Positions 629 through 37,984 of a DNA stretch of 37,984 nt are shown in pieces. Each line of letters begins with the position of its first letter. Within the stretch, counting starts at the first letter, position 1. Source of the stretch: a virus. The notes under the pieces are model-generated. The model was given only the letters and a program-made list of their open reading frames with translations, searched no databases and was not told the origin of the DNA. A program made the position numbers and the translations under genes. The DNA is taken from positions 1 to 37,984 of the IMG/VR virus record IMGVR_UViG_3300005663_000022. One strand, written 5' to 3'.

Positions 629-741
629 TATGTAACCTCCCCTTTTATTTGTTCACCTGTTATCTTTGACAAGAGTTTCTCTGTGAGAAGCAGCTCTATC
701 AATAGCAACCTTAGTAAATCATTCCTCGTTATGTCGGCCAT
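628..741 (-). CDS. Small helical protein (37 aa)
   Basis: A 37-codon frame begins MADITRNDLLRLLLIEL and is rich in Leu and charged residues, which suggests a single amphipathic helix. No family is recognised. The start overlaps the end of the 81-aa gene by 13 nt, and the stop shares one base with the ATG of the next gene (TAATG), as at other junctions of this operon. The Shine-Dalgarno (GGGGAT) is weak, so translation probably depends on coupling to the upstream gene. Confidence 0.5.
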   Translation of the reverse strand: MADITRNDLLRLLLIELLLTEKLLSKITGEQIKGEVT

Positions 742-974
742 ATTATATCCCCATAATCAATCTCTTCATCAGTTATTATGGAGAGATGTAGATTTATTCT
801 TCTTAGGGTAGCGACCGCTAGTTCTATTAAGTCTCTCTCGGTGATGTCGGGGCCTAGTTGCTCCTGGACAAACGCATCCAAATCAACGTGACTTACTATG
901 TGCTTATGCGTCTTCCCTTTTCCTAAGTCCCTGTACCCAGGTCTCATTACATTCGGTGGTCTGTTTTTATCCAT
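729..974 (-). CDS. Hypothetical protein (81 aa) in tail region
   Basis: This is an unrecognised 81-aa soluble protein. It starts MDKNRPPNVMRPGYRDL, and a mixed alpha-type part follows (FVQEQLGPDITERDLIELAV). Its ATG overlaps the stop of the BNR adhesin gene as TAATG, so it is translationally coupled to it. Position between adhesin and other surface proteins suggests a virion or assembly role, but nothing in the sequence proves it. Confidence 0.65.
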   Translation of the reverse strand: MDKNRPPNVMRPGYRDLGKGKTHKHIVSHVDLDAFVQEQLGPDITERDLIELAVATLRRINLHLSIITDEEIDYGDIIWPT

Positions 975-2464
975 TACACACTCGGTAAAGGTATATCGGG
1001 TAAGTCGGGTCCTTTCGGTCCGCCAGGTTGAGGTCTTTCAGGAGGATGAGGTACTTTGGGGCCTCCAGGGTCAGGTCGTCCTGGCCCACCAGGGCCTGGC
1101 CCAGGTTTTGGTTCCACCTCATCTTCGGGGATGTCCATCTCAGGAAATCGTGGGAAGGGCAGTTCTGCTCCCCCAAAGAAATCTCTCAGTCCTTCCTTAG
1201 TCTGTAACCCTGGCCAGAATAAGGGTGGACGAAGTTCAACCCTTCCACCAGAGGAAAAGTCTCCGCTTAATCCACCACCTAAAATACATTCTAATCTAAA
1301 ATGACCAGGCCAATACCTATGTATAAGACCTGTTATTCTGGTTGTAGCTGCCGTTGGAAAAACAGAAAGAGACCCAAACAAAACCTTACTTCCCTCATCC
1401 TCCCAGATTGCATATGCATTATTCGGAACATTAGTCCTGATAGTTGACACTGTAGGGTGTCTTGCCCAAAGAAGCGAAGTATAACTATTGGCAACTCCTT
1501 CGTTTATAAGCATAGCGTCTGACCATACTGTTGTTCTCCTTCTGAGGTACGTATAAGTAGGACTACCAGAAGTATAAATCATATATATAATATCACTCTT
1601 AGTGAGGGCTATTGACAAGAAATCGGGGCTGATGGTTACATCATTGGTTATGTTCTCCTGTGTCTGCCAGGAGGTTGTTCTCTTCCGATAAAAAGCATCA
1701 GTGCCTACCCAAACTACGTGAACATCATCGCTGGAATCTAGGGCTATAGCTGAGTCAGTCTGACTATCGGCAACATCGGTAATAGCTTCTTGGGTTTGCC
1801 AGCTAGTTGTCCGTTTCCTGTATTGTATGTTATTTATAGTAGTATTAACTCCCCATCCCTTGCCATACCAAACTACGTGAACATCATCGCTGGAATCTAG
1901 GGCTATCGATGCCCCCTTCTGGTCAGAAGATTCATTTGCAATAGTTTCCACAGTACCCCAACTACCGCTAGTCCGCTTTCTATAGTTAATACTAAACTCC
2001 CCCGTATTTGGACTCCATCCTTGGCCATCCCAAACTACGTGAACATCATCAGCACTATCTATGGCCAAGGATGCTCTGTTCTGTCCTGGATTTATGACAT
2101 CCTTGAGGGCTATTTCTTCCTCACTGCCCCAACTGCCGCTTGTTCTTTTCATATACAATAATGAACGACTGTTAGGGAATGCACCTCTACCTGATGCAGT
2201 ATAGGCAATGTGAATATCGTCATCGGAATCTATGGCTATGATTGGAAAGAAATGGTGGTCTGTGTCAGTGTCTGTAACTTGTGTTTCAGTCCAAGTCTGT
2301 CCATCATCATCACTGTAGGCGCAATAGACTTGTTGGTAAGTATAGCCACTAGGCTTCTTGGAATATGTTGCCCATAACCTACCGCCACTTTCCAGAGCCA
2401 ATCGTCTACCAACGACGTCCAATGCAGGTGTGTCAGTTATACTTGCTATAGTATAACTTGGCAT
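974..2464 (-). CDS. BNR/Asp-box repeat adhesin (sialidase-like propeller), Pro-rich C-terminus
   Basis: This 496-aa protein has a canonical Asp-box, SDDDGQTW, at about residues 51-58. Repeats of the form IDSxDDVHVVWxGxGW follow at roughly 50-residue spacing and alternate with YRKRTTSWxxQE strands. This is the layout of BNR beta-propellers found in sialidases and in phage receptor-binding proteins. No catalytic sialidase triad can be assigned, so glycan binding is more likely than hydrolysis. The last ~60 residues are a Pro/Gly-rich tail (PKPGPGPGGPGRPDPGG). Two repeat units are identical over 39 bp at DNA level. The ATG shares a base with the stop of the upstream gene (TAATG). The role is inferred as host-surface recognition at the tail. 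Confidence 0.8.
   Translation of the reverse strand: MPSYTIASITDTPALDVVGRRLALESGGRLWATYSKKPSGYTYQQVYCAYSDDDGQTWTETQVTDTDTDHHFFPIIAIDSDDDIHIAYTASGRGAFPNSRSLLYMKRTSGSWGSEEEIALKDVINPGQNRASLAIDSADDVHVVWDGQGWSPNTGEFSINYRKRTSGSWGTVETIANESSDQKGASIALDSSDDVHVVWYGKGWGVNTTINNIQYRKRTTSWQTQEAITDVADSQTDSAIALDSSDDVHVVWVGTDAFYRKRTTSWQTQENITNDVTISPDFLSIALTKSDIIYMIYTSGSPTYTYLRRRTTVWSDAMLINEGVANSYTSLLWARHPTVSTIRTNVPNNAYAIWEDEGSKVLFGSLSVFPTAATTRITGLIHRYWPGHFRLECILGGGLSGDFSSGGRVELRPPLFWPGLQTKEGLRDFFGGAELPFPRFPEMDIPEDEVEPKPGPGPGGPGRPDPGGPKVPHPPERPQPGGPKGPDLPDIPLPSV
1709..1747. repeat. 39-bp repeat within adhesin gene, copy 1
   Basis: An identical 39-base block is found at 1868-1906, exactly 159 bp (53 codons) away and in the same reading frame. 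It encodes the strand IALDSSDDVHVVW. A third, diverged copy begins near 2030. The pattern indicates recent duplication or conversion of propeller blades. Confidence 0.85.
1868..1906. repeat. 39-bp repeat within adhesin gene, copy 2
   Basis: Second perfect copy of the block at 1709-1747, in frame. Sequence between the copies has diverged, so this short segment is the conserved core of each blade. Confidence 0.85.
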
Positions 2465-3531
2465 TAAGTTCCTCTACTGTTCGTAATCAAAATCCTGTCG
2501 TACAGTTCTAATCTACAATCGTGGGGGATGACTAAGCGTCCTGCTGTTTGTTGTGCTTTGTACCTAAGTAAGATAGCGTCAGCTAGATTTTGTAGTTCAC
2601 CTTGACTTCTTAGTCCCCCCGCCTGCTGGATTTCTGTTACCCGTTGTTCGTTAGTACCGACATCCTCAGCTTCCGCTGTAATTATGTTATCCCAGTCTCC
2701 AGTGTCGGGGTTTTGATTTCCATAAACGATTATATGGTTGGGTACAAGAACGGATTTCTTCTCATCATATACATAAAACTGGAATGCTTGGTCGCTGTAG
2801 TATTGTAGAATAACATCGCCGTACTTTGTCTCTTCTTCTGAAGCACTCACCAGAGGGTATCTTACTCTGAAGATAAGGCCAGCTTCAGCCCTGAGATAAG
2901 ACTTTGTGTGATTCATTAAGCGTTCAACAATCAGACCAGCGTATTCAAAGACAGTCTTGTTTATCTCAAACTCAGGTACAGTCGTGTCTATAATGCCGTC
3001 ATCGTGTTGTCCAAGAGCACGCAGTTCATACCCAAGTTCATCCTCTATAATGAATTCAAGGATTTTATAATAGGTAAGACCCTCAAATTTGTAAGTAAAG
3101 TCGGGTGCATCGCCCACACTTTTGATTATCTTCCGCATCATCCGCCTCCACACACCCTCTAAAGTTAAAACAACGATTAAAGTCCCGGGTTCGGAGATGT
3201 ACTGTTGGTGTTCCACCCATAAACGTGCTGTCGCTGACGTTTCTAATCCTGACCCGCCGTGGTCGGTAGTATCAAATCCATATCCTATATCAACATAATA
3301 CCCTCTTAAATCGGGGATTGATAAATCTTCATTCCTTAGAACGATAATAGCGAAGTCGTCTGATGGAAGCTCCCAGTGTTCTATGTATTTTAATCTATTA
3401 GTGGAAGCAGTAGTTAAACTGTAGTCGTGTGTTGTTAATTCATCCTTGCTAGTAAAAATCAATTCAATGGCTGGAGTACCAAAGGATGCTTCTTGGGCTG
3501 CTTTTAATTCGGGGGTAATAACCCTAGTCAT
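2464..3531 (-). CDS. Tail hub / baseplate-like protein
   Basis: This 355-aa protein has the shape of phage tail hub proteins related to late control gene D / gp27. The N-terminal half is beta-rich (residues ~20-130, IELIFTSKDE...YVDIGYGF). A middle segment resembles the hub's helical insert (KTVFEYAGLIVERLMNHTKS). A C-terminal domain follows (LVPNHIIVYGNQNPD...LADAILLRYKAQQTAGRLVIP...LYDRILI), which in these proteins ends in a polar strand specifying position or orientation. It starts with ATG inside the stop of a 34-aa membrane peptide (ATGA) and ends in a TAATG overlap with the adhesin. Homology was judged by eye, so 'hub' is an informed inference. Confidence 0.6.
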   Translation of the reverse strand: MTRVITPELKAAQEASFGTPAIELIFTSKDELTTHDYSLTTASTNRLKYIEHWELPSDDFAIIVLRNEDLSIPDLRGYYVDIGYGFDTTDHGGSGLETSATARLWVEHQQYISEPGTLIVVLTLEGVWRRMMRKIIKSVGDAPDFTYKFEGLTYYKILEFIIEDELGYELRALGQHDDGIIDTTVPEFEINKTVFEYAGLIVERLMNHTKSYLRAEAGLIFRVRYPLVSASEEETKYGDVILQYYSDQAFQFYVYDEKKSVLVPNHIIVYGNQNPDTGDWDNIITAEAEDVGTNEQRVTEIQQAGGLRSQGELQNLADAILLRYKAQQTAGRLVIPHDCRLELYDRILITNSRGT

Positions 3532-7191: not shown

Positions 7192-7443
7192 TTACGAATT
7201 ATAGATTTCCTGTTTATGTTCTTTGTATTCTTCCTTACCCATATATTTTGTCTTGAACCCTTCTCCATCCCCAGCTACATTCCCGCTTACTGGGAACGGA
7301 TTGTGGGAGATGATAGCAAATGTAGATGGAATTAACCTAGCTTCGCTATGACAAAGAAAACATAGTGAATGGTTCCTATCCTTAAAAGGCTTTAGCTCCT
7401 CGTATTTATGCCCACACTCACACAGGTAATCATACAGTGGCAT
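7192..7443 (-). CDS. FmdB-like zinc ribbon protein, copy 2
   Basis: The protein starts MPLYDYLCECGHKYEEL and carries a second cysteine pair (CFLCHS). This is the N-terminal zinc-ribbon pattern MPLYxYxCxxCG of the FmdB/putative regulatory family. The MPLYDY methionine is chosen over a longer in-frame start at 7479 because the family always begins there. It overlaps the preceding, related gene by 14 nt. The C-terminal half (GEGFKTKYMGKEEYKEHKQE) is not part of the ribbon and is charged. It probably binds zinc; its function in a phage late operon is unknown. Confidence 0.75.
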   Translation of the reverse strand: MPLYDYLCECGHKYEELKPFKDRNHSLCFLCHSEARLIPSTFAIISHNPFPVSGNVAGDGEGFKTKYMGKEEYKEHKQEIYNS

Positions 7444-7756
7444 TGCTTCTCTGCTTTCTAGGATAGTAAACATTTCCACTTCTGGATATTAGTGGCTTCG
7501 GTACTCCGTGATGTTCTATCGGCTTAGTGTCCTGCCAATCGGGCATACTCCTTAGCACCTGTTTTTCGTGGGTGATATTACCGCTAGAGTCCACTACTCT
7601 GAAGGGTTCTGCCATCCTGATATGTGAACTGGATATTATTCTGCCAGCACTAGTGCCACATTTGGAGCAAGCCGCAGGTGCGTTGTATTCTGACATTAGC
7701 CTGAGCCTCTCAAATACCTCGTTGCATTTAGGGCATATATACTCGTATAGAGGCAC
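7430..7756 (-). CDS. FmdB-like zinc ribbon protein, copy 1
   Basis: The protein opens MPLYEYICPKCNEVFERL and has a second knuckle, CSKCGTSAG, a complete FmdB-type four-cysteine zinc ribbon. The remaining ~70 residues carry no recognised domain (FRVVDSSGNITHEKQVL). The start codon is GTG overlapping the upstream stop as TAGTG, with GGAGG 7 nt before it. It is followed by a second member of the same family, so this is a tandem duplication or paired acquisition. It lies between head-decoration and tail genes; the role is unknown, possibly assembly or transcript regulation. Confidence 0.78.
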   Translation of the reverse strand: MPLYEYICPKCNEVFERLRLMSEYNAPAACSKCGTSAGRIISSSHIRMAEPFRVVDSSGNITHEKQVLRSMPDWQDTKPIEHHGVPKPLISRSGNVYYPRKQRSNATV

Positions 7757-9004: not shown

Positions 9005-10030
9005 CTACCCCACGATTGTACCGTCTTCATCAATGCTGTGGATACGACCCAATGCCCTTGTACTACCCAACGCACAGGTGGCATAGGCTGTTAGCCTGAT
9101 GCCCCCAGCATCGTAGTCTTCCAGGTCTGGTATTTCCTTCATCTTGAAGAAAGGTGTTCCGCCGGTTGTACCACCAACTACTAGAGAAAGCCCACCATCC
9201 ACAATCGGTCCGAAGCGGATACCGTAGATGCTGGACATACCACTATCGTTCCCCGAATCTTTCCCACCTGTGTTGTCGTTCTCTTGAAGCAGGTAGTCAG
9301 AAATAACGATAGGAATACCATCAAAGAAGTCCACCATCTTACCAAACTGGTCAGGGGTATGGGTACTAGTGGCTATTACATTGGCACTGGAAAGTACGAT
9401 GCCCTTTTCAAAGGCCACCGCAGCCAACGTATCTCGCATAGTTCTAGTCATCAGTAGGATGCTAGCTCTTGGCCTCACTGCGTTCACGAGTCGCCTTAGT
9501 TCCCTGAAAGTCACTGGTGATGTTGACCCACCCATATCCTTAGACTGTAGATTAGTAGCCGAAGTGAAATCATCGCCATCGGCTATACTGATGAGTTTGT
9601 CAAGACCGTCAAACTCGATAGACGCTTCGGTGGAACCCGAACCATAGACTAGTGTATCCTCTATAGTCCGCATCACACCCTTGATTAGACTCTTCATAAT
9701 CTCAGTCCTGTAGTCGTTGGGGTCCTGGTAGGTCTGCATTACGAATTCATCGAGTATATCCTGACGTATTGCCCTCTTCAGCCAGACCTCTTTCTGGGTA
9801 AGGGTTACATCAGCCTTCCAAGGTATCTGCTGGTGTATATCATACCAAGCCGCTGAGGGAAGGACGTTTTCCCTGTTATAGATGAGTGACCTGCTGTTAA
9901 GCTGAACAATAGGCATCACCGGTAGGAGTTGCCCCACCTCAATAACTTCCTCAATAACACCAGCAATCATCTCTGAGATGACAAGTTTTCGTAGTTCAGA
10001 TAAACTACTGAAATTGCCTACTATTGCCAT
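9005..10030 (-). CDS. Major capsid protein (HK97-fold type)
   Basis: This 341-aa protein shows the HK97-like order. There is an N-terminal helix (LSELRKLVISEMIAGVIEEV), then an E-loop-like segment with WYDIHQQIPW. A spine helix region follows (DEFVMQTYQDPNDYRTEIMKSLIKGVMRTIEDTLVYG). The A-domain is SPVTFRELRRLVNAVRPRASILLMTRTMRDTL, then GKMVDFFDGIPIVISDYLL. The C-terminal strands are GGLSLVVGGTT..FFKMKEIPDLEDYDAGGIRL. There is no N-terminal delta domain; a separate scaffold gene lies immediately upstream. AGGAGG precedes the ATG by 5 nt. Identification rests on motif order and the portal-scaffold-capsid context. Confidence 0.85.
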   Translation of the reverse strand: MAIVGNFSSLSELRKLVISEMIAGVIEEVIEVGQLLPVMPIVQLNSRSLIYNRENVLPSAAWYDIHQQIPWKADVTLTQKEVWLKRAIRQDILDEFVMQTYQDPNDYRTEIMKSLIKGVMRTIEDTLVYGSGSTEASIEFDGLDKLISIADGDDFTSATNLQSKDMGGSTSPVTFRELRRLVNAVRPRASILLMTRTMRDTLAAVAFEKGIVLSSANVIATSTHTPDQFGKMVDFFDGIPIVISDYLLQENDNTGGKDSGNDSGMSSIYGIRFGPIVDGGLSLVVGGTTGGTPFFKMKEIPDLEDYDAGGIRLTAYATCALGSTRALGRIHSIDEDGTIVG

Positions 10031-10039
10031 ATCTTCCTC

Positions 10040-10711
10040 CTATTTTGTTGGGTGTAGTTCCTCAAAACCTGCCTTAATCTTAGCACCGCTAGATTCAGGC
10101 ATTTGAGTACCCCCAGTCGTCTTACCAGAATCAGGAGTAAAAGGCTTCTTTGTTGATGCACCCTTAGCAATCTCTTCTAGTTGTTTAAGGTCTGAGACCC
10201 CCAGGCTCTTCAACCACGCAGGGTCAACCTCGTGCTTCTTCGCTATCGCCCAGATGTCTGTTTCTAGCCTCGTAGCCCTAGTTGCTTCAATCTCGGTTTG
10301 ATGTTGAGTCTTATCGGCTTCGTGCTGTACTTTCTGAGCCTCAAACTCTCTCTGCTTAATATTGAATTCAACCTGTGAGGTACGGAGCTTTTGTCTCTGC
10401 TGGATAATAGTGAGTTGTGCAGGGTCGTCCTTTGCCGATTCTAGTTCCGCTATATCCCTAGCCTGTTGCCTTTCAATGTCTCTAGCTTCGGAATCCTTGA
10501 TAGCCTGCTCTCTTGTATCAAGTACAGTCTTACGGCTTTCAAAGTCCTTAGCCGTCCGACCCGCAGTTGATAGGGCATCGCTTACGGCCTTGTCCCTGTC
10601 TTCCTTGGTAAAAGTTTCGGGTGTTGAAGTACTCCCCTTCTCACTCGTAGAAGAGTCCCCAGTTTGGGAAGAGTCCTGTCCAGTGGTCTTGGTTTCGTCC
10701 TTGGTTACCAT
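10040..10711 (-). CDS. Capsid scaffolding protein
   Basis: This 223-aa protein lies directly upstream of the capsid gene. The first ~35 residues are low-complexity Ser/Thr/Glu (TTGQDSSQTGDSSTSEKG). Residues ~40-150 form a continuous, highly charged coiled coil with Gln repeats (RQKLRTSQVEFNIKQREFEA). The C-terminus has a helical capsid-binding type segment (AIAKKHEVDPAWLKSLG) and ends basic. No protease domain is visible, so maturation proteolysis would need another factor. Architecture and location match phage scaffolds. Confidence 0.85.
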   Translation of the reverse strand: MVTKDETKTTGQDSSQTGDSSTSEKGSTSTPETFTKEDRDKAVSDALSTAGRTAKDFESRKTVLDTREQAIKDSEARDIERQQARDIAELESAKDDPAQLTIIQQRQKLRTSQVEFNIKQREFEAQKVQHEADKTQHQTEIEATRATRLETDIWAIAKKHEVDPAWLKSLGVSDLKQLEEIAKGASTKKPFTPDSGKTTGGTQMPESSGAKIKAGFEELHPTK

Positions 10712-10743: not shown

Positions 10744-13700
10744 TCATCTGAATTTAGCTGCTAATGGCCTTGCAATGGGTTTTTCAAATACATCTCTTCG
10801 GGGGCTGGGTGTTAAGTCTCTCGGCTTCCATCCCAGTATGTCAAGCGCCGCTCTATAAAACTCTGTATGTTCTCTAAGGAATGCTTTTCTGTCCTCGTTG
10901 TCTGTAAGCATATAGTATTCAACATAGTCCTCAATAAGATGTTCGGGGAAGTTGTTTTGATGAGCATCCCTTCGCCTTCTTGCCTTTGCGTACTCAGGGA
11001 AGAACAACAAAGCCAGCTTCCTTAGCCGTGTAGTTTCGGCTGTGTCCTTTCCTTGAAGGGCGTCATACCAGTCATCCCACTCACCCCATTGTGCGTTGAT
11101 ACGGAGTACCCCTTCGTTCCAACCCTTGCCGTCATCCGTAAGTAATCCCTGGTCTAGCGCCCACTTAAAAGACTCAGGATGGTCAATCAGCCAGACCTTA
11201 ACTTCTGAACTACCAGCGGTGAACTTATCAACAAGCCGTCCTCGTTCAACCCACTCCTCAATTATGTCATCGGAAGCGAGATGTTCAATAGCCTCTATCC
11301 TTCTTATATCGTCTACCCATTCAGGATTATCTAATCTAAGCCGCTCTCTAGCATCTTCTCTTTCTTCTTTTTCCTCTACGTAATTAGGTGAGTCCTTATC
11401 ACTGTAACTATCAAAAAGGTCAAACAAAGCCCTGTTCTTAACCTTTAATTCAAGCGAAGCTATTAGCGTATCAATTGGTTCCAGCCCTCTCCACTCCGAA
11501 TAGGCAGGGTCTTTAGCTAAAAGAAGTTGGGTCTCCCAGCTGTTCCAGCCAAATATCGGCCCCATCTCAAGATACTCAAAGTGTGTTTCAAGTGATGCTC
11601 TAGGTGGGAGGGTAAGTTCTGGTATCGCTCCATCAGGAATATCCAACTCATCTACCAAAGTTATAAACTGGTCATAGGCTTCAACGCTTAATATATCAGC
11701 CTGCCCCCAGAGTGCTAACTGAGCGTCCTCGTTTATGTTTTCTCTCAGCCACTCGTCACGAAGGTTCACTAGAAGTCCAGGGTGTTCTTCCAAGAAAAGT
11801 TCTTTGTCTTCAGTAAGGGTAAAATCTTTTAAGAGTTCATACTGGCGCCTAGTAATGTTACCCAAATATGCCTGTCTATTATCTGGGTCTCTATCGTACG
11901 CCTCAAGTTTATCGGGGTCTATATCTTCACGTTCTTGCCAATGAAGAATCCAAAGGTCAAGTTGTGCCAACCCCCCTGGCTCGTCAACCAATTTATATAA
12001 AGGTCTATCAACAAGGAACTTCCAGACTGCTTCTGCCAGTTCCTTCTGAGCCCACGCCACAGCAAGCGGAGAATAGCCGTTTGCCTCTGTTATATCCTCT
12101 ACATCCTTTAGAATTTGGCTAAATGCCGAATTGAGGTTACCCATATCGTAAATCTCAGGCGGTTCAAGAGAGAAAGGCAACTGCTCGCCCATCGGTGTTG
12201 CCAAAAGTTCCTCTTCAACGGTGACCTTTTCCTGTGGTGACGGTGGTTCGTCCTTCCCCGCCAGTAAAGCCTTTTGTAATTGTTCTACTAGATTTCGGTC
12301 TACTTCGTGAGTACCACCACGCATCTCATATTCATCATCAATCATCTCTCTTATCTTGCGTAAAGCGAAGACATCTACATCTTTCATATCCGTTATGGCA
12401 TCAAGTGCCTGAACTAGATTTTTATAGAATGGGATAGTTATATCGGCAGCCCCAGTTATAATGCTCGGTAGCTGCCCCAAGGCCGTCCTGTCTCCCTGAA
12501 TCGCTTGGGTTATAAGATACATTACATTTGAAAGGTCTTCTGTGACCCCAATTATCAAACCACCAGGAGTCCAAGTTAATATGTTGAGGGGATTATACGG
12601 GTTATGGGACTTGCCAGTAATCTCCTTGTAAGCTTCTCCCATAAGAAAACCAGCCACAATAATACCAACGATTATTTGAGCAGCCAGTATCTTCTCTCTA
12701 ATAGGAATGTTAGGGTCTCTTAGCTTAGAACCTTGAAGTATTATCCTCTCCCCCCAACTTCTAGTAAAGACGAGGATATTACCCAATGTTTTACCTGTTG
12801 CTCCCTGCTCTGCAGGTGCTCTCTGCGCTCTGTCGTAAAGGAAATGTACGTTATTGACTAACTGTTGCGCATTATAGAGTGCAAACGCCTCCATCCCGCT
12901 GACTGAACTTAGACCCTCTACGCCATAGTCCACCTCATCCATAGCCAATAATTCAAGAGCTTCTGCTTGTTGCCTAGGTTCAAAGTCAATCAAACCCGAG
13001 TTCTTCATAAGTTTCTTTACATCGCCGTCTAATTCATAATCAGACAAAGCTCGGTCTATCCTGTTCATCCTGACAAAAAACGCCTCAGCTCTGTTTGATT
13101 TGTCAGACCAAGGGTAGAGGCTGGTTTTGTGAGCCAACGTCGTAAGTCTATCAAAGCCTACAAAGGGCTTCTGTGAGTACAAAAGATAATCTTGTTCTAT
13201 ACCTTTCTCTTGTGAGATAAATACCTCAAACCACTGCTTCCTCTGTTTGCTCATAAACCTGTTACGAGGGTCAATGAAACGGCCAGCGTGGTAATCAGGA
13301 TTAAATGCAAAGTTCTGGAACTTATTTCTCAGAACGAGGTCTGGTCTCCAGAACACAGCAGAGGCAACCTGTGCGTACAATCTTTCTATCATATGATTTA
13401 TAAAACCACCATCCTCACGATAGCCCTTCATCTCATTCATATTGCGGCTCAGGACACGTGAGGTCTGCCTCTGTGTCTCAGGACTAAGTTTAGGTGCGTG
13501 TTCTGTGTACAACCTGTCAAATGCCCTAATTAAGGGGGAAAGGTCTCTAAGCCCCATTATCTGCTTTGCATAACTACGGTATCTTTGTAGTATTGTTCTC
13601 TCTTCACCAGTATACTCCGTTCCACTCCGTGTCTTTATGTGACCTTTGGAGAACGTGGTAGGCCTAGCGGGGTATAAATGCAGCCCTGGTTTTACTATTG

Positions 13701-16700
13701 AGCGTGGGTCGTAACCAGTTTTAATAACGCCCCAATCCTGTGTATCCAAGAATTTCCTCAAACCCTCAGCCCCACTTCCCTCATAAATATCAACCGCACG
13801 TCTTAAGGCTGCTTTGGGTGCATCGGGAATATCATTTGAGATTAAAGTTACATCGCCACTATGCCCTGCATAAGCCTCGGTGAACCTTGCATATCGGACA
13901 TCATTGCGGAATTCAAATAACTGGCGTTCCAGTTCTTGGGCTAGTTTAATCTCCTCTTCAGTGATATTTTCAGGTGACTTGATTTTAGCCATCTTCTGTT
14001 TAGCTGCGATATAATCTTCTATCCTCTTCAGGGCAACTTCATCTTTAGCGATAGATTCAAACTGGGGGGTAGAAGCCTCCAGCTTATTAACGAGTATCTT
14101 CTGCCTCTGCCTTATGGCAAGGTGTTCCTGATTTATCTTCTGCCAGACATCATAAATGGGAGCCTTAAGTTGCTTCTGTAAGTTCAGGACATAATACCGC
14201 ATAGAGCGCAGTTCATTGCCACGCCTCACTCTGATAGGCTCTCCGTTAAATGTAACCTCTGTTATCTCACTCCTCGTATTTAATCTATCCCTCTCTGTTT
14301 TAATGTCAGGAAACTTATCAAGGGATTCCTCCACTTTGATATTCCAAGTATTCAAGACCGCTTCATCATTTATCCCACGTATAAGCGCCTTGCCTTCACT
14401 TTCAGTGATGAATCTATTGGCATTAACATATCTATCCGCTTGGAGTCCCAGCGTAATTATCAACCTATTGAAGGACTCTTCCGTTAGCTGTTTGTTGGAG
14501 ATAAGGGTTTCCTTCAGTGCAGCAATCTTCTTCTCTGTCTTTAGGGTAACAATGGTTTTGCCCCTAATTCTCTTGGGACGAGCTATCCTAACCTTTTCCA
14601 GTATCGTTACGAGGTGCTCCTGTTTAATAAATCTTAGTTGCCGACGACCAGCGACAGAACTGTAAATTTCTTGAAGTGTCTTCTGAGTCAGACCTTTTAT
14701 TTTTGCCCAAGCCATAATCGTTGAACGGAGTACCGTGGCATCTGGTAGGTCTGGTTTCTGCCTAAAAGTCTCAAGGGTATTCTTGGAAAACTTTAATTCT
14801 CTCTCAAGTCCATCAAGTACTTCCCTTCCTAGCCTAGCCTCTTCGCCCTTCAGACCTTTAATTGCTACCTGGAAAGCATCTATCTCGGTTTCTATTTCAG
14901 TCGTTAGTGTTTCAAGGTCTTTAATTATACTCGACCTCGTGGTTTCCGCTTGCTTCTCAGCAGTCTTTACATCTTCATTGAGCGAAGCCCTTTCGTTGTA
15001 CAATGTCTGAAGCCTAGCATCCATCTCACCTAATCTATTAAGGTCTACCATTAAATCTTCGACAGTCTCATAACCAAACTCAGTGACCACGCTATCTAAG
15101 GCATCCGTCCAAATGACATGCTTCTTATCTCTTGTCAAACTTGTAGGTGGGACTTCTGATTTCCCTGTGAAATCTTTATACTCCTTGATGGTTAAATCAC
15201 TGGGCTGGTCTTTCCTACGTTGCATCCTCTTCCAGACGGGTAGCAACCTCTGGAGATTACTGTTCCTTATCGTATCCTCGTGACCTTCTATCTCAGCAGC
15301 CACTTCGTCTGCCCTTTGGGTAAGGCGTTCTACTTCAGAGATTTTAATTTCTGTTTCGGTAACCTCGGCAATCTGCTCCTTTGTCGGGGGTTTGGGTATT
15401 TTAGGCTTAATGTCTTTGATTTGTGGAGCTTCAGTCCGCATCTTATCAAAGGTCTGCTTCTGCGCCAGGGCTTCAGCCGTAGTTTTAGGTTTCAATGCCC
15501 GCTCAAGGTCATCTATTTTGGAAACTTCTATAACATCATCAATAACCTTTTTGCCGTCCGCAGTATCAGTTACCTTGTTAAGTGCTTCCTCAGTGGCCTG
15601 TTCTTCAGTCAATCCTCTCGCAAGAGCCGCTTGCTTGTCGGTATCAAATTGTGTTCTTAAATCAGGAGTCAAGTTCCCTATCACTTTCTCTTGAAAGTTC
15701 TGGTATATAACACCGCCAGTACCGAAACTAGCACCCATCATCGTAGCCAAAGTAATAACTAACTTCATCTCATCATCTAAAACAAATTCCCGCCCTAAAG
15801 CCCTCCGGGTCCAGTACTCCTGAGCCAACTCTTGGCCATCTTCCAATATAATTATAGAGATTATCTTGCCCGCAGGATTACGAACTACCTTAATAAAACC
15901 TCTGAGAATAGCACCTCTAAGAACCCTTCCCCCAGGTGCGAAGATAGCAGCAAGTTCAGCAAAGTTTGTCGCACCAAGAAGGATTAGATTATTCCTGAAC
16001 ACTTCATCCGCAACTTGTTTCGCTCCAGCCACATCGCCAGGGTGTTCCACAAGCCAGGCATCGTAAACGCCACCAGCTTCAAGGGCACCCTCAAAAGCAG
16101 CGCCTACTCCACCACCTGCCAATGAAGCAAGAATGTAGCTAGCAAAACTTCCTATAACTGGGGCGGCAAGTCCTTTCGTGGCTGCAAAAGCAAGTATTGT
16201 AACCCCCATTAAAGCTAAGGTAGTGGGTATCTGCTCTATCAAACCCGTATAAATATCATCCCAGTTGAATTGAGTAGGTTCAAGGTCGGCTGTCTTCATC
16301 GCTAAATGTTCGGCAGATACGGCTTGCAATTGGTCAGCTATCCCTTCGTTCCCAAAAAACCTAGCCCCCGAACCTACTGCGGAGAGAATATTGCCATACC
16401 CTACTTCCCACTTGCGTGCCCAATCGGGAGCGGCTTTAACAGCTTTGACATAATTTTCATACTCTTCCTGTGCCCAGTCTTCATTTTGATTTTCAGGGGT
16501 TATCTTCTTTTCCCACGGCCATAAGTTAAAGTTCCGCCCTTCAGCCCAGTTATCTATCGGTAAGATTAAAGCCTCACCGAATACCCCCCTCATCTGGTTC
16601 TCTGTTATTTCGGGGTGTACAATGTTGAGCAACTTCTCGGTATTATCATTCCTCCCAGCTTGTAAAAGGGCAGTATAGAAGCCGTCCTTCGTTTCTGAGA

Positions 16701-17430
16701 AATCAAACTGGGCGATAACAGCCCTAAATTCTTCAGGCCATATCCTTTGGGCAAGCTCCCTAGCTTCCTCGGGTAGTTGACCTAGAACTATTTTTATATC
16801 TCCATCTGTTATACCAGGGAAAGTCTCCTGTATTTCCAATACGACCTTAGAAAACTCCCCAGGGATAAGTATCCTTTCTTGCCATTCTATGAATAAAGTC
16901 TCAAGTTCGCTGATTACTTGTTCTTCAGGGGTTAGTTGAGCTTGTAACGCAACCAGTTCCTTTTCGGCTATTATCCTTTCGGGAGTAGGCATTGGGCCAG
17001 CTAGTTGTTCAAGTAACTGTTCTATTGTCCTACCGCTAGGGGCGGTAGGAACCGTTGGAACAATTTCTGGAAACTCAACTGGTATAGCGGCGAGTTGCTC
17101 TTGCGCTTCAATCTGAGCCTGTGTTATCCAAACACCTTCAGGGGTGACGAAGACTTCCTCAAAGCTAACCTCTTCCCCTTCGGGTGAAATCAAAGTCTGG
17201 ATAAAACCATCTTCGGATGGCGCAAGTTTAAGCTGCCACCCTTCCTCTATCGTAAGGCCAAGTTCGGCAGCTTCCAAAGGGTCAAAGAAGGTAATCTCCT
17301 GTATATCAAGAACACCAAGCGTTTCTTCCCGCCTTTTCCTGCTCAGACCACTAACAACCTCACCAACGAGTTTAGCTGTTATCGCACCGGGTTCTTCGGG
17401 TTGTCTGCTTGGGCCTAAGTCAATTACCAC
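10744..17430 (-). CDS. Giant virion-associated protein (2228 aa), putative internal/ejection protein
   Basis: This gene takes up nearly a fifth of the genome and lies between portal and scaffold. The start is GTG (TAGTG overlap with the 52-aa gene). Residues ~400-450 are hydrophobic and Gly/Ala-rich (LALMGVTILAFAATKGL...ASLAGGGVGAAF), with another likely membrane helix at ~1582-1600 (QIIVGIIVAGFLMG). Residues ~810-880 and other stretches are coiled coil. The middle (~1370-1480) has a helical DNA/membrane-protein-like region (FQNFAFNPDYHAGRF...RNRIDRALSDYEL), and the C-terminal ~500 residues are charged helices. Size, glycine-rich hydrophobic patches and helical repeats resemble large internal virion or polyvalent proteins injected with DNA. 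I found no lysozyme, ADP-ribosyltransferase or MuF motif by eye. A tape-measure role is less likely because of its position next to the portal. Confidence 0.7.
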   Translation of the reverse strand: MVIDLGPSRQPEEPGAITAKLVGEVVSGLSRKRREETLGVLDIQEITFFDPLEAAELGLTIEEGWQLKLAPSEDGFIQTLISPEGEEVSFEEVFVTPEGVWITQAQIEAQEQLAAIPVEFPEIVPTVPTAPSGRTIEQLLEQLAGPMPTPERIIAEKELVALQAQLTPEEQVISELETLFIEWQERILIPGEFSKVVLEIQETFPGITDGDIKIVLGQLPEEARELAQRIWPEEFRAVIAQFDFSETKDGFYTALLQAGRNDNTEKLLNIVHPEITENQMRGVFGEALILPIDNWAEGRNFNLWPWEKKITPENQNEDWAQEEYENYVKAVKAAPDWARKWEVGYGNILSAVGSGARFFGNEGIADQLQAVSAEHLAMKTADLEPTQFNWDDIYTGLIEQIPTTLALMGVTILAFAATKGLAAPVIGSFASYILASLAGGGVGAAFEGALEAGGVYDAWLVEHPGDVAGAKQVADEVFRNNLILLGATNFAELAAIFAPGGRVLRGAILRGFIKVVRNPAGKIISIIILEDGQELAQEYWTRRALGREFVLDDEMKLVITLATMMGASFGTGGVIYQNFQEKVIGNLTPDLRTQFDTDKQAALARGLTEEQATEEALNKVTDTADGKKVIDDVIEVSKIDDLERALKPKTTAEALAQKQTFDKMRTEAPQIKDIKPKIPKPPTKEQIAEVTETEIKISEVERLTQRADEVAAEIEGHEDTIRNSNLQRLLPVWKRMQRRKDQPSDLTIKEYKDFTGKSEVPPTSLTRDKKHVIWTDALDSVVTEFGYETVEDLMVDLNRLGEMDARLQTLYNERASLNEDVKTAEKQAETTRSSIIKDLETLTTEIETEIDAFQVAIKGLKGEEARLGREVLDGLERELKFSKNTLETFRQKPDLPDATVLRSTIMAWAKIKGLTQKTLQEIYSSVAGRRQLRFIKQEHLVTILEKVRIARPKRIRGKTIVTLKTEKKIAALKETLISNKQLTEESFNRLIITLGLQADRYVNANRFITESEGKALIRGINDEAVLNTWNIKVEESLDKFPDIKTERDRLNTRSEITEVTFNGEPIRVRRGNELRSMRYYVLNLQKQLKAPIYDVWQKINQEHLAIRQRQKILVNKLEASTPQFESIAKDEVALKRIEDYIAAKQKMAKIKSPENITEEEIKLAQELERQLFEFRNDVRYARFTEAYAGHSGDVTLISNDIPDAPKAALRRAVDIYEGSGAEGLRKFLDTQDWGVIKTGYDPRSIVKPGLHLYPARPTTFSKGHIKTRSGTEYTGEERTILQRYRSYAKQIMGLRDLSPLIRAFDRLYTEHAPKLSPETQRQTSRVLSRNMNEMKGYREDGGFINHMIERLYAQVASAVFWRPDLVLRNKFQNFAFNPDYHAGRFIDPRNRFMSKQRKQWFEVFISQEKGIEQDYLLYSQKPFVGFDRLTTLAHKTSLYPWSDKSNRAEAFFVRMNRIDRALSDYELDGDVKKLMKNSGLIDFEPRQQAEALELLAMDEVDYGVEGLSSVSGMEAFALYNAQQLVNNVHFLYDRAQRAPAEQGATGKTLGNILVFTRSWGERIILQGSKLRDPNIPIREKILAAQIIVGIIVAGFLMGEAYKEITGKSHNPYNPLNILTWTPGGLIIGVTEDLSNVMYLITQAIQGDRTALGQLPSIITGAADITIPFYKNLVQALDAITDMKDVDVFALRKIREMIDDEYEMRGGTHEVDRNLVEQLQKALLAGKDEPPSPQEKVTVEEELLATPMGEQLPFSLEPPEIYDMGNLNSAFSQILKDVEDITEANGYSPLAVAWAQKELAEAVWKFLVDRPLYKLVDEPGGLAQLDLWILHWQEREDIDPDKLEAYDRDPDNRQAYLGNITRRQYELLKDFTLTEDKELFLEEHPGLLVNLRDEWLRENINEDAQLALWGQADILSVEAYDQFITLVDELDIPDGAIPELTLPPRASLETHFEYLEMGPIFGWNSWETQLLLAKDPAYSEWRGLEPIDTLIASLELKVKNRALFDLFDSYSDKDSPNYVEEKEEREDARERLRLDNPEWVDDIRRIEAIEHLASDDIIEEWVERGRLVDKFTAGSSEVKVWLIDHPESFKWALDQGLLTDDGKGWNEGVLRINAQWGEWDDWYDALQGKDTAETTRLRKLALLFFPEYAKARRRRDAHQNNFPEHLIEDYVEYYMLTDNEDRKAFLREHTEFYRAALDILGWKPRDLTPSPRRDVFEKPIARPLAAKFR

Positions 17431-17588
17431 TATTTCTCCACCCGTTTATTCAAAACTTGTTTATTCCTTGCCCTGGCTCTTTCTACGAGAGTTCTAAGAG
17501 CGTCTGGTCTGGCACCATTAGTTGATTTCACAGGCTCCATAGCAGCCGATATTCGCTTGTTAAATGCTTCTTGAGTTAGTTTTTCCAC
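17430..17588 (-). CDS. Small basic helical protein between portal and giant gene (52 aa)
   Basis: A 52-codon frame starts with GTG (VEKLTQEAFNKRISAAM as written) and ends RARARNKQVLNKRVEK. It is highly charged, basic and helical, with no recognised family. Both ends use TAGTG overlaps: its GTG overlaps the portal stop and its TAG overlaps the giant gene's GTG. GAGG lies upstream. Composition suggests a nucleic-acid or protein binding accessory of the portal-giant module; function unknown. Confidence 0.65.
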   Translation of the reverse strand: MEKLTQEAFNKRISAAMEPVKSTNGARPDALRTLVERARARNKQVLNKRVEK

Positions 17589-19273
17589 TATTCTTTTTCC
17601 TCTTCCAATTCTTCTGGTCGTTGCGTAGCATTACCACGTCCACCACCACCTCCACCAAATAGCGGAATGAGCTGTTTTGCCTCAGCGGGTTCTGGCGATT
17701 TTGGCTCTTCAGTTTTAGGCTGAACAACAGGTTGTGGTCTCAAGAGGCTTTCTATTTTCCTCAAGATTAACTTGGCCTTCATATCAGCCCTATCCCCACC
17801 TTTGGCAGATTGGGCGATAAGACTAGAACCCTGCTCGTATAAAGCTATTACAGGGTCCATCCTCTCCGCCTGCTCTGCCCGTATCTTCATCTTCTCACCG
17901 TCTGGGTCGGGCAACTTGAGGATTTCCCTGCGCTTGTAATCCTCGGATACAAGACCACCCATTGAATTTGCTATAGCCGCATCCGAAGCCTGCTCCTCCT
18001 TGGAAACACTTGAATAACGGTACTTAATTACATACTCACCTTTTAATTTTGAGGGGTCGTGCTTCCTTCGGTGTCCTTCGGCACCCAGTTCTAGAGTCTT
18101 ATTTATTTCAAGGTACTGCTCTATAATCATTCTTGAGCGCTGCTGGTAAAGGAGGGCAAGCGCCCATAAACGTGAGAGGAGAAGTTCCCCCTTACTACCC
18201 GCTAGAAGTGCTAATGAAACAGCTGGCAAGGGGAATGTTACAGAACCAAAATCCTGTATTGAGAAGGAGGCCATCTGTTCCCGCCTGTCAATCATATTCA
18301 TAAAAACACGGGTAAAGTTCTTTAAGTCAGGTTTGGGGATTAGAGTGTAGGCATTTTGCTGGTCAACCTGCATAACTCTTCCCGCTTTGCCTGGGTAGTT
18401 TTTACCAGGTTTAGCTGTCCTGCCTTCTTCAGTGACCTCCTGGTAGGGTGGCTTTAGAAGGTCGTAGTTCATCGTTTTCAACAGCGTAGCTATCCAGTTA
18501 ATCTCTGGGTACAGGTCACGAAGCAAGGAAAAGATACTCTCACCCTGCCTTTTCTTCGTATCACGGTGTTTTAAAGCAGACCCCGATGGAGGCATCTGGA
18601 TAACAAAAGGGGGTTTCCCGTAAGGATTATCCTGTTCGTTTGCCAATTGTTTGTTTACATAAATTATTTCTTTTTCGTTTGTCCAGATACCGGTAATTAT
18701 GTTATTCTCTTCCTGTAGGCTCTGAGATTTAACATCGTACTGCTCAAGAACCATTGATTTATCCCTGAACATCTTATAGGCCACCCAATTTTCTTTTACG
18801 CCTATTTCATAAACGAGATATCTAGTATCAAGGGGTCTTACGTCAGGGATATAGATACCGTTCTCTTCACGTGTTAGTATCTGGTCGGCAATAGGGCCGT
18901 TGATACACACGCCTTCAGAATGTGTAGAAAACTCTGGCCATTCACCTTCCTCGTTTAACTTGGCATCAACCTCATACTCCGTATCATCAAGGAAGTTCTC
19001 TACGGCGGTAGTTTCCTCATCCGACATCTCCTTCCTGCCAGCTTCTACCATTGTCTGACGTTTAACCCCAGCAAGTTTGGCGATAGCCTTGGCAGCGAAT
19101 AGAGCACCATCTGGTAATGTAACGTTGGATACATCCTTCTGCTCTCTCTGACCGTCAAGAGTCATCATTACAAAAGGAGATGAATAGAGAATATCCCTAT
19201 CCTTATCCATACGGTCAAATAAAGGCTTGAAAACCTTTTCTTTCTCTTGAACCTTATCCAGCCAATCAGCCAT
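17588..19273 (-). CDS. Portal protein
   Basis: This 561-aa protein follows terminase and precedes the giant, scaffold and capsid genes. Residues ~60-130 hold the wing-like helical region; the middle has DVRPLDTRYLVYEI and DLYPEINWIATLLKTMNYD..KPPYQEV. Residues ~330-430 hold the conserved helical stem region (MIDRREQMASFSIQDFG...LLSRLWALALLYQQRSRMIIEQYLEI), and a disordered Gly-rich tail (GGGGGGRGN) ends the protein. The ATG at 19273 shares a base with the terminase stop (TGATG). It forms the dodecameric DNA gate at the capsid vertex and the docking site for the terminase. Confidence 0.8.
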   Translation of the reverse strand: MADWLDKVQEKEKVFKPLFDRMDKDRDILYSSPFVMMTLDGQREQKDVSNVTLPDGALFAAKAIAKLAGVKRQTMVEAGRKEMSDEETTAVENFLDDTEYEVDAKLNEEGEWPEFSTHSEGVCINGPIADQILTREENGIYIPDVRPLDTRYLVYEIGVKENWVAYKMFRDKSMVLEQYDVKSQSLQEENNIITGIWTNEKEIIYVNKQLANEQDNPYGKPPFVIQMPPSGSALKHRDTKKRQGESIFSLLRDLYPEINWIATLLKTMNYDLLKPPYQEVTEEGRTAKPGKNYPGKAGRVMQVDQQNAYTLIPKPDLKNFTRVFMNMIDRREQMASFSIQDFGSVTFPLPAVSLALLAGSKGELLLSRLWALALLYQQRSRMIIEQYLEINKTLELGAEGHRRKHDPSKLKGEYVIKYRYSSVSKEEQASDAAIANSMGGLVSEDYKRREILKLPDPDGEKMKIRAEQAERMDPVIALYEQGSSLIAQSAKGGDRADMKAKLILRKIESLLRPQPVVQPKTEEPKSPEPAEAKQLIPLFGGGGGGRGNATQRPEELEEEKE

Positions 19274-20709
19274 CAATAATAGTCCTTCGTCTGCGGAGGC
19301 CCGCCCTTATGATTAGCAGCACGGGCAAACAGCATCATCAATGTATCCGCCCTGTCAGGAGACTTTGAACCCCTTGCCCTAGCCTCTTCCTTAGATTCAA
19401 TAAAATATCTTCCCTTCCCGTCATATCTAAAACGGATGTCCAGAAGTTGAGCCTTTAATATATCGTCTTTTGGTATATCAATCGTGCCTTCCTCAAATTT
19501 CCTGTTTAATTTCCAGTACTCCTCAGCACGAGCATTTCCGAAAACAACTTTATCAATAGCGTTTGCACCTGAGTAAAAACGAACAAGAGACTCCCCATCC
19601 TCTTCTACAATATCGGCAACATCATCTCCAAGAGCGACCGCATCTATAACGGTTATGTACGGCTTCTGGAGTCGCATCTCACGGATTATCCTTCCCGCCG
19701 ACTCAGGGGCCTTTGAATGAGACCAAGGTTTCATTGAAAATACTTTATTCCCTATGCGTGTACCAAAAACCGAGAAATCTTCACCGTATCTCGCTACATC
19801 TACGGCACTTACTTTCGTATCCCCAACGGGTAAATCTCGCTCCATCGCTGCTTCTACATCACTTAATCTGAATAGATTATTAACCCCCGCTTCGGGGAAA
19901 TCTCCGAGGACGTACACTTGAAACAGGGAACTCCCCTCACCCCACTCTGAGAAGCGTTCAGCCACCCACTGGGGGTCTATAAGAGACGGATAGGGCAATT
20001 CCCCTACCTTGTCTTTCCACGCCCCTGTACGGATGTCCTCAATTAAAATATTAAATTCTGTAAAATTTGGGGTGTCAAAAGCCGATATGTGAAACTTTTT
20101 GTACAAAGGGGAGTTAAATGCATCCCTGAAACTCCCAGTAGGACGTGTCGGGTTGCCGATTAAAAGTAATCTCGTAAATCCTCCACTTAAAGGGTTCTCA
20201 ATGGCGGCATAGACTTCTTCACTTAATCCTGAGGCTTCATCTGCGATTACAAGAATGTGAGGAGAATGAAGACCCTGAAACCGCTCTGGTTCATCGGTTG
20301 ATAGTCCTATAGCGAAGTGGTCTTTAGCAAGATTAAGTCCTACTTGTTTAGGAGACCCGTCTAATTTAATGGTAGCACTTCCGTGTGCCGTCGCTATCTC
20401 TCTCCATAAAATAGACTCTACTTGCCTAAATGTAGGGGCAGTAGTAATAACAATTGAAGGACGGTAATTAAAAAGAAAACACAATGCAATACGAGCAGCG
20501 TCAAAAGACTTCCCACTATTACTACAACTTCTCACAGCAGTGCGTGGGTTCTTCATTACAGATTCAGCTATCTGAGCTTGAAGAGGGTGTAGCAGGCAAT
20601 TGAATATTTCTTGTATCCATAAGGTGGGCTTACCTCTTCCAGCCGACCTTAATAATAATGCCTGCCCCTCTGTCACCTCGGGAACTGCTGGTGCTTCTAG
20701 GGGCCTCAA
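19273..20709 (-). CDS. terL: Terminase large subunit (DNA packaging ATPase/nuclease)
   Basis: The N-terminal ATPase has a Walker A variant, SCSNSGKS, at residues 61-68 and Walker B ILVIADEAS at ~152-160, followed by LLIGNPTRPTGSF (coupling motif region). The C-terminal RNase H-type nuclease shows acidic centres in SAVDVARYGEDFSVFG, TVIDAVALGDDVAD and SPDRADTLMMLFA. It cuts concatemers and drives DNA into the prohead through the portal. The start is TTG overlapping the upstream zinc-ribbon stop (TTGA); length 478 aa is normal for the family. It is TGATG-coupled to the portal gene. Confidence 0.93.
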   Translation of the reverse strand: MRPLEAPAVPEVTEGQALLLRSAGRGKPTLWIQEIFNCLLHPLQAQIAESVMKNPRTAVRSCSNSGKSFDAARIALCFLFNYRPSIVITTAPTFRQVESILWREIATAHGSATIKLDGSPKQVGLNLAKDHFAIGLSTDEPERFQGLHSPHILVIADEASGLSEEVYAAIENPLSGGFTRLLLIGNPTRPTGSFRDAFNSPLYKKFHISAFDTPNFTEFNILIEDIRTGAWKDKVGELPYPSLIDPQWVAERFSEWGEGSSLFQVYVLGDFPEAGVNNLFRLSDVEAAMERDLPVGDTKVSAVDVARYGEDFSVFGTRIGNKVFSMKPWSHSKAPESAGRIIREMRLQKPYITVIDAVALGDDVADIVEEDGESLVRFYSGANAIDKVVFGNARAEEYWKLNRKFEEGTIDIPKDDILKAQLLDIRFRYDGKGRYFIESKEEARARGSKSPDRADTLMMLFARAANHKGGPPQTKDYY

Positions 20710-30001: not shown

Positions 30002-30166
30002 TTACTTCAATCCCTTTGCCGCACACCAACCACTTTTTCGTTGAAACACTCTTACTCGCCAACCCTGCTTCCTCCATCCCATAGCAAGTTCTTTGGCTTC
30101 GTTTTTACTATAGCAATCTTTCACAAGTAGCCAATTTAATCCAGTTATCTGGTATTTCTTATTCAT
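30002..30166 (-). CDS. Small basic protein (54 aa)
   Basis: MNKKYQITGLNWLLVKDCYS begins a basic alpha-beta protein ending RVRVFQRKSGWCAAKGLK. It overlaps the lipoprotein gene by 8 nt and its ATG is followed by no strong ribosome site, so coupling is likely. No family is recognised. Confidence 0.55.
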   Translation of the reverse strand: MNKKYQITGLNWLLVKDCYSKNEAKELAMGWRKQGWRVRVFQRKSGWCAAKGLK

Positions 30167-30953
30167 AATAATCTGGCATCACTCCCTCATACAACCAGGT
30201 CAAGATAATATTATACCCTGTGAAGTCATTCTCCCTCATCAGGTCGTAGCCTAACTGGAAGTCCTCGGGCTCATTGAACTGCCAGCTACCTGGCCCCATA
30301 TAGAACAGAGTTACTAGGTTGCCCCACCCGTTAGGGCTACGGAGATAGGCCGACTGAGAGAAAGAGTCAATATAGATGTCGGACCAGATAAATATTCCTT
30401 CCTCGGCTAACAGTTCGTAGTTCAAGTTATCCCTTACCCCGTCCCCATCATACACCCCGAACTTCACATCCTCCTCCCGGAAGATGCCATTCAGGGCAAG
30501 TAGATAGGTCGTGATGTCGCTTGGTGCTGGGTAATGCATCACCCCGACAACCACGATGAAGTAGTCTATCTCTTTGGCAATGGCTCGGTAAGCATCTAGG
30601 CGGTATTCCCATTTCCTATAGTAGCGGTAGACACCATCAGGCTCATATCCCATTCTGGTAGATTCGTTGTAGTCTATCACCCAGATAGTCTTGGCGTGAG
30701 CCTTCTTCTTAACCCACTTGATTTCGTCCAGTAAGGGTTGGACAGTCGCTCCCTGGTTGGTGATTATTGAGTGTAAATCAGTTCCGATGGCGATGTCTCT
30801 TATTCCAGTCTCAAGGACTCTAGCGTGTATTAACTCTATATCAAAGCCCTCGTCTATCTTGTAGGAGTAGACATCTTTGAAGGTGCGGTTATACCCCAGG
30901 ACGGGAGCACAACTGACTAATAAAAGTGTTAGTAAGATTAGTATGGTTTTCAT
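30159..30953 (-). CDS. Secreted lipoprotein, TIM-barrel glycosidase-like
   Basis: Residues 1-15 are a signal peptide (MKTILILLTLLLVSC) with a lipobox LVSC, so a diacylated Cys-15 is expected. The mature part alternates strands and helices in a barrel-like rhythm: IAIGTDLHSI, AKTIWVIDYNES, YFIVVVGVMHYPAP, DVKFGVYDGDG, IFIWSDIYIDS, FYMGPGSW, YNIILTWLYEG. Acidic and aromatic ends of strands fit a glycoside-hydrolase-type fold, but catalytic residues are unassigned. A phage lipoprotein of this size could alter the host envelope or block superinfection. The gene lies in the early operon with TAATG coupling. Confidence 0.7.
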   Translation of the reverse strand: MKTILILLTLLLVSCAPVLGYNRTFKDVYSYKIDEGFDIELIHARVLETGIRDIAIGTDLHSIITNQGATVQPLLDEIKWVKKKAHAKTIWVIDYNESTRMGYEPDGVYRYYRKWEYRLDAYRAIAKEIDYFIVVVGVMHYPAPSDITTYLLALNGIFREEDVKFGVYDGDGVRDNLNYELLAEEGIFIWSDIYIDSFSQSAYLRSPNGWGNLVTLFYMGPGSWQFNEPEDFQLGYDLMRENDFTGYNIILTWLYEGVMPDYYE

Positions 30954-37845: not shown

Positions 37846-37984
37846 CTAATTCAAAGCTGTGCTTGGGAGTTCAATCCAATAAACCTGGGTAAATCCAGTT
37901 GTGGCTACTGTTCCTCCACGATAGACGAGTAGTGTGCTCGGCCCTTTAATGAGAGGTACATACTTTGGTTCGTACAGCAGGTCA
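37846..37984 (-). CDS. Virion structural protein, 3' part of the origin-crossing gene
   Basis: This is the C-terminal end of the gene that starts at 628: the frame continues from base 1 to 37907 (codons in phase once the 77-bp overlap is removed) and ends GFTQVYWIELPSTALN with TAG at 37846-37848. Bases 37908-37984 repeat bases 1-77. See the entry at 1-628. Confidence 0.8.
   Translation of the reverse strand, partial: DLLYEPKYVPLIKGPSTLLVYRGGTVATTGFTQVYWIELPSTALN
37908..37984. repeat. Terminal direct repeat, right copy
   Basis: Exact copy of bases 1-77; redundant end of a circular assembly. Confidence 0.95.

Follow-up and report, generated by a model that had tools for sequence, protein, structure and literature searches.

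The IMG/VR virus record IMGVR_UViG_3300005663_000022 consists of 37,984 bp, and the whole of this stretch, referred to here as the window, was analysed. On its minus strand, at positions 10744 to 17430, a giant open reading frame (ORF) was identified which starts with GTG at 17430, contains no internal stop and codes for a protein of 2228 amino acids without a single cysteine. An earlier note on this DNA had given the same coordinates without stating the strand, and had described a gene of nearly a fifth of the genome with no tape measure visible beside it. An exact direct repeat of 77 bp is located at both ends of the record (positions 1 to 77 are identical to 37908 to 37984), which indicates a circularly complete genome of about 37.9 kb. 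The giant gene accounts for 6687 of about 37,907 bp, or 17.6%, and since every other ORF of the window is at most 562 amino acids long, a separate tape-measure gene is indeed not visible. The giant is probably a polyvalent internal (ejection) protein, which would act in the manner of T7 gp16 and N4 gp50, the largest proteins that short-tailed phages eject.

The giant ORF is real. Its nearest relative was found on a 45.4-kb contig (L026; related loci are designated by L numbers), where the giant has 2207 amino acids and is 52% identical over residues 828 to 2217 (1,461 alignment columns), with hardly any relation between the front halves of the two proteins. The differences between the two genes at the codon positions amount to 0.315/0.214/0.634 (908 codons). 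This implies purifying selection on the giant protein and, together with the L026 homologue, excludes a chance ORF.

Several modules can be distinguished in the protein, all coordinates being on the minus strand. The N-terminal region (residues 1-330; 16441 to 17430) includes a small beta-containing domain at about residues 47-105 and varies among the relatives. It is followed by a hydrophobic, Gly/Ala-rich module, designated module B (residues 338-660; 15451 to 16419), with a hydrophobic peak at residues 406-426 and 36% glycine plus alanine in residues 401-500. For the slot after module B (residues 660-828; 14947 to 15453) helices are predicted, and no domain was recognised there. The central body (residues 828-1745; 12196 to 14949) lies within the part conserved in L026 and contains a second hydrophobic peak (residues 1581-1601; 12628 to 12690), both hydrophobic segments having been called from hydropathy alone. 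The protein ends with a C-terminal helical repeat module (residues 1861-2217; 10780 to 11850). The membrane-like Gly/Ala-rich patches and the coiled coils that had been noticed before were both recovered, the latter as predicted long helices at residues 684-723 and 790-857, which fit coiled coils. AlphaFold2 was run in two pieces covering the whole protein (residues 1-1040 and 1029-2228). Both models are mostly helical, and the only well-predicted parts are the C-terminal repeats (residues 1861-2211, with a predicted local distance difference test score, pLDDT, of mostly 76-94) and part of residues 1077-1238.

No significant match was obtained for the window giant in Pfam, PHROGs, NCBIfam or the PDB sequences, and no catalytic domain could be assigned by these searches, just as the earlier note had assigned none from the sequence alone. 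Likewise, tblastn of the window giant (against 50,697 phage records) and of the giant of the related locus L004 found no match among sequenced phages, the back-translated window giant found none in IMG/VR or in the GTDB genomes, and neither module B nor the C-terminal module of the relatives was matched among sequenced phages. LPD38 (PF18857) and PLxRFG (NF032893) were not detected in the window giant at E values up to 10, and neither phrog_2206, the family of the N4 virion RNA polymerase, nor any RNA polymerase domain was found in it. The slot of the window protein had no match in the PDB. A MuF model was absent from the Pfam matches of all scanned members. By the sequence comparisons run, the giant is thus outside the LPD38, PLxRFG, MuF, virion RNA polymerase and tape-measure families.

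The genes around the giant are also on the minus strand. The large subunit of terminase (TerL; 19273 to 20709; phrog_2, 8e-30) and a putative portal protein of 562 amino acids (17588 to 19276) are located upstream, and a putative scaffold protein of 223 amino acids (10040 to 10711) and the major capsid protein (9005 to 10030; phrog_212, 1e-33) are located downstream. The portal was assigned by its position after TerL, its size and synteny, and the scaffold by position, size and synteny; neither has a family match. In every related locus where the region is visible, the giant is found between the portal position and the scaffold and capsid genes.

This gene order bears on the proposal that the giant is the tape measure of a virus with a long tail; its tail genes would be too divergent to be seen, and its tape-measure gene would have been displaced in the order. 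It is the longest gene, its product is helical with hydrophobic stretches, tape measures are common among the non-significant Foldseek matches of the models, gpH of phage lambda is likewise cysteine-free, and no cluster of tail genes, of whatever kind, was recognised in the genome. However, the related loci which show the region all place the giant between portal and scaffold or capsid and not in a tail cluster, and none of the 18 giants scanned has a tape-measure family among its matches at 0.01. Homology to a tape measure over most of the length, which the earlier note had named as a finding that would speak against an internal protein, was not found in these 18 members. The length of an alpha-helical tape measure corresponds to about 1.5 angstrom per residue. 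By this rule 2228 residues would give a tail near 330 nm, which is odd for a genome of 38 kb; in addition, the relatives vary in length between about 1,680 and 2,570 amino acids and carry LPD38, ParB/Srx and GNAT-like domains. A tape measure is therefore unlikely, with only a slim chance left to it.

The relatives were gathered with the capsid protein as the first query and the L004 giant as the next, which gave about 13 distinct IMG/VR contigs with giants of about 1,500 to 2,600 amino acids in the same slot of the genome. In L026 the portal is 26% identical to that of the window and the capsid protein is without similarity. In L004 the capsid protein is 83% and the portal 32% identical, and the giant matches in two stretches only, at 27-30%. 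These two loci show opposite conservation of capsid and giant, and on this comparison there is strong mosaicism around the giant gene. As an observation on the capsid genes themselves, the proteins encoded at 9005 to 10030 of the window and at 12879 to 13904 of L026 have no detectable similarity, despite homologous portals and half-homologous giants.

The mosaic character extends into the giant protein. Module B is common to L004, L018, L020, L023 and L025 and, more weakly, to L017 and L024. Homologues of the central body were identified only in L026 and in L015, where the part corresponding to residues 1040-1736 is 27% identical and forms a separate gene. L012 contains a different body with LPD38 (1e-45 to 2e-49) ahead of the same C-terminal module, which it shares with the window at 1e-50. 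The body found in L012 has homologues among the giants of the Bacillus phages Page and Pony, of Pelagibacter phages including HTVC034P, and of Vibrio and other phages, and in the podovirus record MW202898 the gene of its homologue follows an annotated internal virion protein B. A third type of body is present in L004, L018, L020 and others, with short sub-threshold matches to PLxRFG; altogether eight relatives match NF032893 below the cut-off, around profile positions 295-390. In two loci the giant is split, in L015 (1922 to 9425) into two genes of 1496 and 1006 amino acids and in L025 (6376 to 11128) with the C-terminal part as a separate ORF of 373 amino acids, and the splits are either gene fissions or sequence errors.

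The slot after module B is exchangeable among the relatives. L017, L024 and L026 have a common domain with an invariant DGxHR just after module B. The L024 copy matched SbnI (3e-5), ParB CTPases (4e-4) and sulfiredoxin (7e-3) in the PDB, and because of these matches the domain is assigned to the ParB/Srx fold. In L025 a GNAT-like stretch is found in the slot (Pfam 4e-5, under the curated cut-off). The suggestion that the giant may hold new activities gains only from the relatives, whose enzyme-like folds follow the membrane-like module directly; in the window protein itself no catalytic domain was found.

There is a small chance that the giant is a head-resident protein injected mainly as a host effector or anti-defence factor, like P1 Dar or T4 Alt, and has no role in the path of the DNA. 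Its location between portal and scaffold is similar to that of the MuF proteins, the ParB/Srx-fold and GNAT-like domains occur at one place in the relatives, and the front half varies greatly, as would be expected for a gene in an arms race. Against this, no enzyme domain was recognised in the window protein, no MuF domain is reported for any scanned member, and the conserved central body, the C-terminal module and the second hydrophobic segment point to a mechanical role.

The C-terminal module follows the portal. With a hidden Markov model (HMM) it was identified in 11 of 11 loci with a window-type portal and in neither of the two loci with another portal (Fisher 0.013, a value which ignores shared ancestry and includes two negatives only). 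In L010 and L015 a related capsid protein goes with a different gene at the portal position and no C-terminal module, and L026 combines the module and a window-type portal with an unrelated capsid. A function of the module at the portal is suggested by this distribution. As a tentative extension, which we consider more probably wrong than right, the repeats might be a portal-docking handle that loads almost any giant body, whether window-type, PLxRFG-like or LPD38, into the head by one and the same conserved attachment. A strict regular expression for the repeat was also tried and was too narrow to be useful.

That the module tracks the portal family might also be expected if the giant were a non-virion protein or served in assembly only, such as a scaffold or packaging helper of very large size that is absent from the finished particle; it adjoins the scaffold gene, and phage scaffolds are similarly helical and cysteine-free. 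However, the window and most relatives already have a scaffold-like gene apart from the giant, and we know of no precedent for an assembly helper, used only once, that would reach 2,000 residues and include membrane-like segments as well as enzyme-like inserts. This explanation is regarded as highly improbable.

The lack of cysteine was compared with known systems. The window giant has 0 cysteines in 2228 residues versus 16 in 3650 residues of the other structural proteins of the genome (Fisher 0.001). In a small, hand-picked set of phages, T7, P22, SP6 and epsilon15, the ejection proteins contain 6 cysteines in 8631 residues versus 90 in 12,151 residues of the other structural proteins (Fisher 6e-15), which is about tenfold fewer. 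The ejection proteins of SP6 and gp15 and gp16 of T7 are without cysteine, while T7 gp14 and four ejection proteins of epsilon15 have one or two each; N4 gp50, gp51 and gp52 have none in 4294 residues. The zero count of the giant thus fits an ejected protein. The literature was also searched for a mention that ejection proteins lack cysteine; none was found in the papers covered, which does not show that the feature is unreported. The absence of cysteine may be a simple clue to proteins that pass the tail, to be used with caution, as tape measures and scaffolds share it.

Among known systems, the closest likeness is to the polyvalent proteins of phages (Iyer et al. 2017, PMC5512222), including the LPD38 giants such as Bacillus phage Page gp20. 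Like these, the giant is very large and modular, swaps domains and is a late gene of a portal-terminase virus, for which TerL and capsid are confirmed and the putative portal is adjacent. Polyvalent proteins carry several recognised domains; in the window protein none was recognised, whereas relatives at the same genome position have LPD38, the ParB/Srx fold or the GNAT-like stretch. The central body and the C-terminal repeats are unmatched in sequenced phages, and in Page the giant gene follows the tail genes, unlike the position between portal and scaffold found here. Eight relatives share short sub-threshold matches with the PLxRFG model (tail-700), unlike the window giant.

Two membrane regions have been described for T7 gp16, and ejection proteins as a class share less than 10% identity and swap domains (PMC8954989). 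The giant resembles T7 gp16 and its podophage counterparts in being large, helical and cysteine-free and in having two hydrophobic regions; it differs from gp16 in gene position and in lacking sequence similarity and a detectable lytic transglycosylase domain. The N-terminal domain of N4 gp50 enters nanodiscs (PMC12633501). N4 gp50, the virion RNA polymerase, is likewise giant and cysteine-free, but its RNA polymerase domain is missing from the window protein. Module B of L018 (2e-5) and of L025 (4e-4) weakly matched the N-terminal part of the phrog_2206 family.

Several results weigh against an ejection protein. None of the known ejection, LPD or polyvalent families is matched by a domain of the window protein, and no counterparts of the smaller T7 partners gp14 and gp15 were identified in the window genome. 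The AlphaFold2 models are mostly of low confidence (mean pLDDT 52 for residues 1-1040 and 60 for residues 1029-2228), and Foldseek searches with them gave nothing significant in BFVD or the PDB. In the direct profile comparison of module B with N4 gp50 the probability was 1%, and the control search with phrog_2206 also matched in three unrelated genomes, so that the N4 link comes down to the weak matches of the two relatives. The absence of cysteine is not specific to ejection, because the lambda tape measure gpH (0 in 853 residues) and phage scaffolds share it. In profile-profile comparison the central body was not significantly similar to the LPD38 and PLxRFG bodies; homology among the body types is for this reason not claimed, though their motif order looks alike by eye.

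The reading as an ejection protein is nevertheless favoured, because position, size, helices, the two hydrophobic segments, mosaic evolution and the absence of cysteine all fit it. The earlier note had preferred an internal or ejected protein to a tail ruler. This proposal is indirectly supported, the gene being never found in a tail cluster, its product being free of cysteine and of tape-measure homology, and relatives carrying LPD38, ParB/Srx and GNAT-like domains; presence in the virion, ejection, membrane insertion and portal docking are what we infer from these features. Since the relatives swap enzyme-like and membrane-seeking parts, the giant is most likely packed in the head and pushed into the host with the DNA.

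Four steps can be proposed for this process. The giant would be placed in the procapsid near the portal, perhaps via its C-terminal helical repeats, as the C-terminal module co-occurs with one portal family and not with a capsid family. Stored in the head and at least partly unfolded, it would then be threaded through portal and tail, either before the DNA or together with it, and the absence of cysteine fits this. By analogy to the two membrane regions of T7 gp16 and the N-terminal domain of N4 gp50, the hydrophobic segments of module B and of the central body may enter the host membrane and help to form a path for the DNA. Finally, the slot after module B may carry exchangeable effector cargo in the relatives, of the ParB/Srx-fold or GNAT-like type; nothing of this kind is recognisable in the window.

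With respect to the host, the sequenced phage whose TerL comes closest (38%) is vir525; it originates from a methanogenic enrichment and its host is written as Methanosarcinales, while the remaining matches are mostly from bacterial phages. A search of GTDB genomes by capsid alignment found no provirus, hence no host was assigned. Some further genes were noticed. At 7192 to 7756 of the window, between the capsid genes and putative fibre genes, two adjoining small genes code for proteins of about 100 amino acids with four cysteines each, which read like zinc-ribbon proteins; at least one of them has homologues at the same place in most related loci. A protein of 264 amino acids encoded at 30159 to 30953 has a lipoprotein-like signal (LLLVSC) and no Pfam match. 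In L005, a distant capsid relative, an 839-amino-acid terminase-like ORF (650 to 3169) has, by eye, an apparent intein-like insertion.

Ejection proteins diverge fast, and most are annotated as hypothetical. The loci described here amount to a natural experiment, in which one slot of the genome holds at least three central bodies that could not be related to each other, together with exchangeable inserts, while the C-terminal module tracks the portal across capsids. Docking of this module to the portal would, if it occurs, account for the loading of giant proteins into heads; should the module serve as a common handle, ejected cargo would be exchanged independently of the capsid.

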